A DNA stretch of 64,000 nucleotides from Myxococcus stipitatus (GTDB taxonomy: Bacteria; Myxococcota; Myxococcia; Myxococcales; Myxococcaceae). The stretch covers positions 1,054,001-1,118,000 of the forward strand of contig NZ_JAKCFI010000002.1 in NCBI RefSeq assembly GCF_021412625.1, written 5' to 3'. This document shows, piece by piece, positions 4,495 to 8,624 of this stretch. Each line of letters opens with the position of its first letter. Position 1 is the first letter of the stretch. A program made the translations under genes and the position numbers. A model generated the notes under the pieces. That model did not search any database, was not told where the DNA came from, and saw only the letters and a program-made list of their open reading frames with translations.

Positions 4495-6486
4495 ATGGGA
4501 GCGCTCACCCTCAGCGCGTCGGCGCATCTGTGGGAGCAGTTCCTCGTCGGCGCGTTCGACGGGGGCCCGGATGCGCGTGTGGAGGCCCACCCCATCCTGC
4601 CTCGGTGGCAGCGCTCGCGCGCGCTCGGGGCGCCGAGCACGGGCCTGCCGGAAGAGGGGCCCAGCGTCGGCGCGCTCGCGCTCGTCGAGCGGCGCGCGCG
4701 GATGGAGCCGGTGTGGCACGAAGTCCGTGAGCTGCTGGAGCTGCTCGCCGCGACGCCATTGCCGTCGGGGCGGGTGGCGCTGCTGGCGGACCGCGAGGGC
4801 GTCATCCTCGCGACGCGCAGCTCCGGCGGCGACTTCCGGGACCACGCGGACTACGTGCGCCTGGTGGCGGGCGCGTGCTGGGACGAGACCTGCCGGGGGA
4901 CCAACGCCATCGGCACCGCGCTGGTGGAGGGCTCCGCGGTCGCGGTGGTGGGCCCCGCCCACTATGCCCAGCGTCACCACGGGCTCGTCTGCTACGCGGC
5001 GCCCATCCACGACCCGTTCGGCGAGGCCGTCGGCGTCCTGGACGTCACCGGACCGGCGAGCGACGCGGACCCGCTGGTGTTGATGACGGTGGCCAGCATC
5101 GCGCACTCGGCGGAGGCCCGGCTGCGCGAGGTCGCCTGGGCGAGGATCGCCTCCTCGACGCGCGGCGCGCTGGCGTCGCGGCTGTCGCGAGAGGACGAGC
5201 CGGTCCTGCTCCTCGAGGCGCCGGGACGCATCGCCCACCTCAACGCGGCCGCGCGGCGGGTGCTCGGCGCGGCGCCCGACGTGCAGGGCCCCACCGACCG
5301 GGTGTTCGGGCTGTCGTGGCGCGCGCTGAAGGAAGCGGCGCTGCGCGGCGACACGTTGGAGGCCGACCTGCCGGGGATGGCCGCGTCCTGGCGCGTCCAC
5401 GCGGAGCTGGTGGGGGAGGGCGCCGGCTCGGCCCTGGCCCTGCTGGTGCGCCTGGAGTCCCGGGGCGCTCGCGCGCAAGGACCCGGGCCTCGCGCCACAG
5501 CGCCGCGCCTGGAGGGCGATGCCTGGGCCGCGCTGAAGGGAGACGACCCCGCGCTGCGCGCCACGCTGCGAGAGGCCGCGCGCTACGCCCCCACGTCGCT
5601 GCCGGTGTTGCTCCTGTCGGAGACGGGCACGGGCAAGGAGCTGCTCGCGCGCGCCATCCATGCCTCCAGCAACGTGGGCGCGGGGCCCTTCGTCGCCGTC
5701 AACTGCGGGGCGCTCTCCAGCACCCTCCTGGAGAGCGAGCTGTTCGGCCACGCGCCCGGTGCCTTCACGGGGGCTCGCGCGGGTGGCGCGGACGGGAAGC
5801 TGGCGGCGGCGGATGGCGGCACGCTGTTCCTCGACGAGCTGGCGGAGATGCCCGCCGCCCTCCAGGTGATGCTGTTGCGCGTGCTGGAGGACGGGAGCTT
5901 CTCGCGCGTCGGCGAGTCGCGGGTGCGGCACTCGCGCTTCCGGCTCGTCGGCGCCACCTGCAGGGACCTCGAGGGCGCCGTGCGCGACGGCTCGTTCCGC
6001 GGCGACCTCTACTTCCGGTTGCAGGGGGCCATCCTCCGCCTGCCGCCGCTGCGCGAGCGCGGGGACCTGCCCGAACTGGTGAAGGCCCTCGTCGTCCAAC
6101 TGGCCCAGGAGGGAGGCCACCCGCCCTGCGCCGTGTCGCCCGCCGCGCTCGCGCGCCTCCAGGCCCACGCGTGGCCCGGCAACGTGCGAGAGCTCAAGAC
6201 GGTGCTGCGCCTGGCGCTGGTCCGGGCCATGGGCGCGGACGTGCTCGACGTGGACGCGCTTCCGCCCTTGTCCGGGGGGGCCCCACCCCGGCATCCCGTG
6301 AGCCCACCGGCGCGAGAGGCTCCGTCCCCCGTGGCGCTGCGCGAGCTGGAGGCGAACGCCATCCTCGATGCGCTCAGCCGCAGCGGCGGCAACGTGGCCA
6401 GGGCCGCCCGGCTCCTGGGCATCGCCCGCAGCACCCTCTACCGCATGGTGGAGCGCTTCGGCCTGTCGCTGCCGCCCCGCTCCTGA
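4495..6486 (+). CDS. Sigma-54-dependent activator, AcoR type (GAF - AAA+ - Fis HTH)
   Basis: 663 residues. An N-terminal GAF-type sensor (about 60-210, with [15 protein letters not shown] as in AcoR) is followed by a sigma-54 AAA+ domain (about 340-570) containing Walker A SETGTGKE, the sigma-54 contact loop GAFTGA and Walker [10 protein letters not shown] Fis-type helix-turn-helix closes the protein ([20 protein letters not shown]). Walker A begins with Ser where Gly is usual. It would sense a small molecule such as an aldehyde or acetoin and activate sigma-54 promoters. The aldehyde dehydrogenase gene 189 bases downstream has such a promoter and is the likely target. An AATAAT hexamer 8 bases before the ATG suggests a leaderless mRNA. 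Confidence 0.93.
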
Positions 6487-6563
6487 GCCCCGCGCCTCCG
6501 CTCGTCACGGGCGCGTCCGGGTGTCGCGGCGTGTCTCGCCCCGCGCCAGCTGTGTCCGTCCAG

Positions 6564-6582
6564 GTGTCGCGATGCGCGACAC
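6564..6582. promoter_or_regulatory. Palindrome, probable enhancer site of the sigma-54 activator
   Basis: GTGTCGCGATGCGCGACAC is a perfect 8+8 palindrome with a 3-base centre. It lies 30 bases upstream of the -24 element of the aldehyde dehydrogenase promoter, where an activator dimer could bind. A GTGTCGCG half-site occurs again at 6521-6528. Binding by the upstream AcoR-type protein is inferred from position. Confidence 0.6.
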
Positions 6583-6612
6583 GACGCACCGCGACGTCGA
6601 GGCGGCGCGGCG

Positions 6613-6627
6613 TGGCACGGGTGTTGC
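6613..6627 (+). promoter_or_regulatory. Sigma-54 (-24/-12) promoter of the aldehyde dehydrogenase gene
   Basis: TGGCACGGGTGTTGC matches the consensus TGGCAC-N5-TTGC at every conserved position, including the invariant GG and GC 10 bases apart. Transcription would begin near 6639, about 37 bases before the ATG at 6676. A sigma-54 activator gene sits immediately upstream. Confidence 0.85.
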
Positions 6628-6675
6628 CCCTGGGGGGCGCCAGTTCCCACCCGCTGCCCACGCAGGAGAGCGTCC

Positions 6676-8195
<1,520 letters not shown>

Positions 8196-8196
<1 letters not shown>

Positions 8197-8624
8197 TGAG
8201 CGACCCCCGCGCCGGCCCCGGTGCGGGAGGGCGTCCGGAGGTGGCCCGGGTGGCGGTGACGCCCGAGGCCGCCGCCGTCATCCGCTCGCTGCGCGCCACC
8301 CACGGGCCGCTCATGTTCCACCAGTCCGGCGGCTGCTGTGATGGCAGCGCGCCCATGTGCTACCCCCAGGGCGAATTCCGCGTGGGCCAGCGGGACGTCT
8401 TCCTGGGCGAGGTCGAGGGCTGCCCCGTCTACATCGGCGGGGCGCAGTTCGAGTACTGGCAGCACACCCACCTCACCGTGGACGTGGTGAAGGGCCGTGG
8501 CGCGGGCTTCAGCCTGGAGTCGCCCCTGGGGGTGCGCTTCCTCACGCGCAGCCGCGTCTTCACGGACGAGGAATACGCGCTGCTGAAGCAAGCCCCACCC
8601 CCGCGCCGCGGGCCACCAGAGTAG
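8196..8624 (+). CDS. DUF779 protein, partner of the aldehyde dehydrogenase
   Basis: 142 residues, starting one base inside the dehydrogenase stop. The core carries the DUF779 signature: PLMFHQSGGCCDGSAPMCYP near residue 50 and GCPVYIGGAQFEYW further on, with three clustered cysteines. DUF779 genes are repeatedly found next to ExaC/AcoD-type aldehyde dehydrogenases, and the coupling here fits that pattern. The cysteines suggest metal or thiol chemistry, perhaps helping the dehydrogenase mature, but I know of no settled function. Regulation is shared with the dehydrogenase through the sigma-54 promoter. Confidence 0.85.

Follow-up and report, generated by a model that had tools for sequence, protein, structure and literature searches.

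In the Myxococcus stipitatus window analysed here (64,000 nucleotides), a sigma-54 activator gene lies directly upstream of an operon composed of exaC, which encodes an acetaldehyde dehydrogenase, and a DUF779 gene. The activator is probably a substrate-induced switch that drives this operon through two dyads located ahead of a sigma-54 promoter (Table 1). In the pathway that I propose, the GAF-type activator would bind as dimers to the two 17-bp dyads, 6532-6548 and 6564-6582, which would present it on the same face and near the promoter. The activator would then bind an aldehyde (acetaldehyde, the substrate of ExaC, being the most likely one), and the active AAA+ ring would assemble; with its GAFTGA loop this ring would contact the sigma-54 polymerase at 6613-6627 and so open the promoter of the exaC-DUF779 operon. 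The locus is a well-conserved and ordinary kind of sigma-54 substrate switch, and its arrangement is of a known type.

Table 1. Features of the activator-exaC-DUF779 locus (window positions)
Feature	Position	Strand	Description
Activator gene	4495..6486	+	663 aa; GAF sensor, AAA+ sigma-54 interaction domain with GAFTGA, Fis-type HTH
Distal dyad TGTCTCG-CCC-CGCGCCA	6532..6548	+	putative activator site; centre about -99; 8/17 positions invariant in 27 genomes
Proximal dyad GTGTCGCG-ATG-CGCGACAC	6564..6582	+	putative activator site; centre about -66; 12/19 positions invariant in 27 genomes
Conserved block GACGCACCGCGACGTCG	6583..6599	+	17 bp between proximal dyad and promoter; 12/17 positions invariant in 27 genomes
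Sigma-54 promoter -24/-12 TGGCACGGGTGTTGC	6613..6627	+	exact consensus; predicted start near 6639
exaC, acetaldehyde dehydrogenase	6676..8196	+	506 aa; NCBIfam AcaldDHExaC (NF050026) 958.4 bits, cut-off 900
DUF779 gene	8196..8624	+	142 aa; Pfam DUF779 163.1 bits

A sigma-54 activator gene precedes exaC and DUF779

The three genes are on the same strand, with a gap of 189 bp between the activator gene and exaC and an overlap of one base between the exaC stop codon and the DUF779 start codon. An earlier note on this DNA had placed an activator just upstream of the promoter and its likely target, an aldehyde dehydrogenase gene followed by a DUF779 gene, just downstream, and both the coordinates and the comparison between genomes described below support that layout. 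Three domains of the activator score above the Pfam cut-off, namely GAF (31.2 bits, for a cut-off of 22.4), Sigma54_activat (195.3 bits) and HTH_8 (48.1 bits), and the translation contains the GAFTGA motif, which together with the AAA+ domain and the Fis-type HTH characterizes a sigma-54 activator (bEBP). The label "AcoR-type" is one that I assume from the architecture and from motifs; among the best 25 of 26 NCBIfam models none reached its cut-off, and no curated AcoR model was matched at that level. In a search of solved structures, the matches to the activator at an E value of 1e-10 or better covered the AAA+ part and in some cases also the HTH, and none of them covered the GAF sensor. No solved relative of DUF779 was better than E 0.11. 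DUF779 sits beside exaC in many of the loci compared. One rpoN match was found in the host genome.

The promoter and the dyads

The promoter agrees with TGGCACG-N4-TTGC without a mismatch, as the earlier note had stated, and displays the GG at -24 and the GC at -12, 10 bases apart, that are characteristic of sigma-54 promoters. The exact pattern occurs twice in the 10.1-Mb genome, against no occurrence of the reversed control pattern; when one mismatch is allowed, at least one match is present in 87 of 100 shuffles of the window. The other exact occurrence (L185 1501-1515; G000:C13:150819-150833) is located just downstream of an ORF, 19-1362 of the same stretch, whose translation, judged by eye, reads as a response-regulator type sigma-54 activator.

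The proximal dyad was initially described as a 19-base perfect palindrome 30 bases ahead of the promoter. Its place and its distance from the -24 element are correct, but it really consists of a 3-base spacer flanked by two perfect arms of 8 bases each. Chance can produce such a structure: when the 189 bp between the genes were shuffled 2000 times with dinucleotides preserved, 324 shuffles contained an 8-base inverted repeat with a spacer of 0 to 11, and 40 contained one with a spacer of exactly 3. With a comparable repeat in 16% of shuffles, and with the exact 8+3+8 repeat confined to the window among the 27 genomes of the genus examined, the palindrome might be taken for a chance repeat in GC-rich DNA, the promoter alone being functional. 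This explanation is hardly credible, however, given that 12 of the 19 proximal positions are invariant, that the distances vary by no more than 2 bp in all 27 genomes, and that dyads are enriched across taxa at activator-linked exaC loci. It is the conservation of the repeat and the promoter in 27/27 genomes, window included, that raises them above chance.

The switch has one detected target site. With 0 or 1 mismatch allowed, the 8+3+8 repeat matches nowhere in the genome but at its own site; with up to 2 allowed it matches 21 places, its own site included, where the reversed control pattern matches 9. The genome search for further repeat sites suggested by the earlier note therefore yields none at up to 1 mismatch and 20 more at 2 mismatches, to be read against those 9 control sites at up to 2 mismatches. 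A wider operator regulon was rejected for want of a further site at up to 1 mismatch; when the operator is extended by ACGACGC, the next best genome site has 2 mismatches.

Conservation across the genus

To the window were added 26 other genomes of the genus, giving a set of 27 whose exaC upstream regions were aligned; the names of the matching records include Myxococcus and Pyxidicoccus species. Activator orthologues adjoin exaC in 27/27 genomes, and are upstream and co-directional in all 26 of the longer stretches. The activator gene, the two 17-bp dyads, the -24/-12 promoter and exaC are all retained in the 27 genomes examined, and exaC is followed by a DUF779 match in 26 of them. The sole exception is G019 (L044 6018-8018), which has no DUF779 match within 2 kb after its activator-linked exaC; its second exaC copy (L072) does have one.

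Mean column entropy over the 27 genomes is 0.27 for the proximal dyad, 0.28 for the -24/-12 element (10 of 15 positions invariant, GG and GC among them) and 0.49 for the distal dyad, to be compared with 0.96 and 1.16 for the two spacers, 1.05 for the leader and 1.33 for the upstream stretch. The ribosome-site stretch scores 0.46, with 7 of 15 positions invariant, and the fourfold sites of exaC have a mean of 0.62, 36 of the 182 being invariant. The geometry is nearly fixed: the dyads are 33-34 bp apart, centre to centre, in every genome (33 bp, about three helical turns, in the window), and the centre of the proximal dyad is 39-41 bp from -24, while the distance from -12 to the start codon ranges from 40 to 56. 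The earlier description of an enhancer palindrome must consequently be amended. The proximal dyad is indeed conserved, but the enhancer comprises two dyads, of which the distal one (6532-6548) had been missed, and strict palindromy is not conserved. The conserved proximal core is TGTYGC-N5-GSGACA, and all 12 half-site bases of the form TGTYGC-N5-GCRACA are present in 4 of 26 genomes (G015 left out).

A contig titled Comamonas sp. KCTC 72670 (BNCN01000006.1, L091) carries a Myxococcus activator-exaC-DUF779 unit; its exaC stands at the same position as in G024:C6, which belongs to the genus of the window, and the name Comamonas on the record therefore looks mistaken.

Dyads accompany the activator at other exaC loci

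A further 62 exaC loci were scored, 6 of them the genus's own paralogues, after removal of L152 and L162 (the same loci as L094 and L095) and of L074 and L175 (partial exaC). An activator homologue was found upstream in 21 loci, downstream in 1 and not at all in 40, where for part of the loci "not at all" means none within 1.5 kb, and where some of the 21 homologues are weak or distant matches. These 21 loci, together with the 27/27 genomes of the genus, contradict the earlier view that such a unit is uncommon. A dyad scoring at least 10/12 (spacer 4 or 5) is present in 11 of the 21 loci with an upstream activator and in none of the 40 without (Fisher 8e-7), which leaves 10 activator-linked loci without such a dyad; at a score of 9 the contrast is weak (18/21 vs 17/40). 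A sigma-54 score of at least 5/6 is similarly distributed (10/21 vs 1/40; 3e-5). When no motif was assumed, TGTCGC was the most enriched 6-mer, present in 15/21 vs 4/40 loci (one-sided P 1.7e-6, uncorrected for the roughly 2000 words compared); TGTTGC ranked fourth (8/21 vs 1/40). All these P values are nominal because the loci and genomes are related. The paralogues, a second exaC-DUF779 pair present in six genomes of the genus (L068-L073), have no activator match in the stretch around each and no sigma-54-like site above 3/6, and therefore serve as an internal control. A separate GACGTC element beyond the genus was also enriched (7/21 vs 1/40) and was dropped as chance because its positions are scattered in 19 upstream regions.

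These counts bear on another candidate for the palindrome, MrpC, a CRP-family protein whose motif is TGTY-N8-RAC. MrpC has a similar half-site, with GTGTC...GACAC symmetry, and 1608 putative MrpC sites are reported in M. xanthus (PMC4320627, available text). Nonetheless, it is very improbable that the palindrome serves MrpC in place of the sigma-54 activator: the dyad spacing here is N9; in the 200 bp ahead of exaC, TGTY-N8-RACA is present in 4 of 26 genomes, the window genome not among them, and in these 4 it lies away from the conserved dyads; and at the other exaC loci strong dyads of the conserved form are seen only with an activator homologue upstream (11/21 vs 0/40).

Operator and activator may also vary together. 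In L150, L154 and L155, 3 of the 21 loci, exaC is preceded by the operator variant TGGAGCG-TTT-CGCTCCA, and the activators of these three loci share a change in the HTH, VA for AA (GNVS-x-VA-x-RLG). This is suggestive of co-variation between the operator and the DNA-binding domain, though the three loci perhaps represent one lineage. The HTH helix ARST-YR is present in most of 16 aligned activators (no activator reading frame was found in L191, L195 and L196) and does not discriminate, because the activators of L149 and L156 have it too, although no such dyad is seen in the exaC promoters of these loci. TGTYGC-N5-GCRACA is put forward as a candidate operator for a family of aldehyde-type sigma-54 activators, found outside the genus too; the loci carrying an operator of this type there include L133 and L134, which come from the class of a Pseudohongiella genome.

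Nla28 and the MXAN_5040 promoter

By promoter and gene order, MXAN_5041/5040/5039 of M. xanthus is the orthologous operon, and MXAN_5041 is taken as the orthologue of the window activator on the basis of gene order and numbering. Contrary to the reading proposed for the window, the published control of MXAN_5040 is by Nla28, of which the M. xanthus promoter is already a published target (PMC9765219, in the portion available). The same portion describes MXAN_5040 as part of a 2-gene aldehyde dehydrogenase locus with the sigma-54 site TGGCACG-N4-CTGCT and with Nla28 half-sites TGGCGCAG-N12-CTGGGCAT. It reports that the promoter fragment is bound by Nla28-DBD in an EMSA, that half-site changes of 4 to 8 bases reduce activity while a 2-base change does not, that MXAN_5040 mRNA is reduced in an nla28 mutant and during development stays at or below the vegetative level, and that with an insertion in MXAN_5040 the yield is 55.5% for spores and 1.2% for viable spores (PMC9765219). 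The term MXAN5041 is absent from the main text of that paper, and the accessible literature on MXAN_5041 and MXAN_5040 yielded no test of MXAN_5041 as the MXAN_5040 activator. A masABK deletion is reported to lower 5039 and 5040 by 64- and 45-fold, respectively (PMC3546991, available text).

Nla28, and not the neighbouring activator, could be the main activator in the window as well, acting as reported for MXAN_5040 from half-sites that lie within the 3' end of the activator gene. The EMSA, the reduced mRNA of the nla28 mutant and the half-site mutations (PMC9765219, in the portion available) speak for it, and the letters of the MXAN_5040 promoter and of the half-sites are present in M. xanthus AM003, which stretch L055 matches base for base across the 2 kb compared. 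I nevertheless regard Nla28 as an unlikely main activator. With up to 2 mismatches allowed in each, the half-sites are found in 12 of the 26 genomes scored (L013, whose HTH pattern was unmatched, was left out), and in the window genome (L005) the first half-site departs from CT(C/G)CG(C/G)AG at 5 of 8 positions and the second at 2; other single Nla28 half-sites exist nearby. The half-sites moreover fall within the HTH codons of the activator gene, so that their conservation can be put down to constraint on the protein. The dyads, by contrast, are conserved in 27/27 genomes.

Two inputs are likely for MXAN_5040. An MXAN_5041 null mutant is reported, in the literature text available, to have no developmental defect, whereas the MXAN_5040 insertion leaves 1.2% viable spores; the neighbour is therefore unlikely to be the sole activator during development, which speaks for Nla28 or some other input sustaining exaC expression at that stage. 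Nla28 is probably a second, starvation-linked input in M. xanthus-like species, a role with which the half-site pattern agrees in part of the genus (12/26 scored). The comparison points to a likely additional activator of MXAN_5040, a gene so far placed under Nla28, and if it is right the published control of a developmentally important gene would be extended or revised.

A conserved block between the proximal dyad and the promoter

With a mean entropy of 0.21, the block at 6583-6599 varies less than any other stretch scored. At the exaC fourfold rate, 12 invariant positions out of 17 have a nominal probability of 8e-6, the sites and genomes being non-independent. The 12 invariant bases occur together in 27/27 genomes of the genus vs 0 of the 62 other exaC loci, two of which reach 11. 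Nowhere else in the genome is the block matched with 1 mismatch or fewer, and at up to 2 mismatches it has 10 hits (6 forward, 4 reverse) vs 6 and 5 for the reversed control; a repeated regulatory element was rejected on this count.

The block sits where a bending protein would lie. One tentative possibility, to which I give rather less than even credence, is that the block and the dyad-promoter distance of 39-41 bp mark a third protein-bound element, either a third activator subsite or the site of a bending factor, and that the activator operates in a short-range sigma-54 enhancer complex of fixed geometry instead of through the usual flexible DNA loop, while Nla28 would supply a distinct starvation input. 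The locus offers a compact case on whether close-range sigma-54 enhancers need rigid spacing.

The inducer and known relatives

Acetaldehyde is the most likely inducer, by analogy with published relatives of the switch; these point to acetaldehyde or ethanol, and acetoin, which the earlier note had proposed besides aldehydes, receives no special support. The literature search returned no binding or expression test of this activator. In Pseudomonas aeruginosa, EatR (PA4021) is reported to sense acetaldehyde and to drive an ExaC-like gene, and the PA4022-eat-eutBC locus resembles the window in having the activator directly upstream, a sigma-54 promoter and an ExaC-like target (PMC5821096, available text). 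EatR is divergent from its operon, which has ethanolamine genes, whereas the window activator and its target are co-directional and the window genome has no EutB match. Ethanolamine as a source of acetaldehyde was rejected, EutB being present in 1 of the 3 genomes examined (M. xanthus AM003).

Ralstonia solanacearum belongs to a phylum other than that of the window's organism. It has a comparable pair, RSc3129 (AcoR) and RSc3128 (ExaC), in which the AcoR-type activator is predicted to drive exaC, and its growth on ethanol is reported to need rpoN1 (PMC4676750, available text). The bmo promoter of Thauera butanivorans likewise combines a sigma-54 activator, the alcohol-responsive BmoR, with an upstream inverted repeat; unlike that of the window, the BmoR element is 193 bp upstream and involves IHF looping, and deletion of the hairpin alone is reported to leave a response similar to that of the wild type (PMC8899819, available text).
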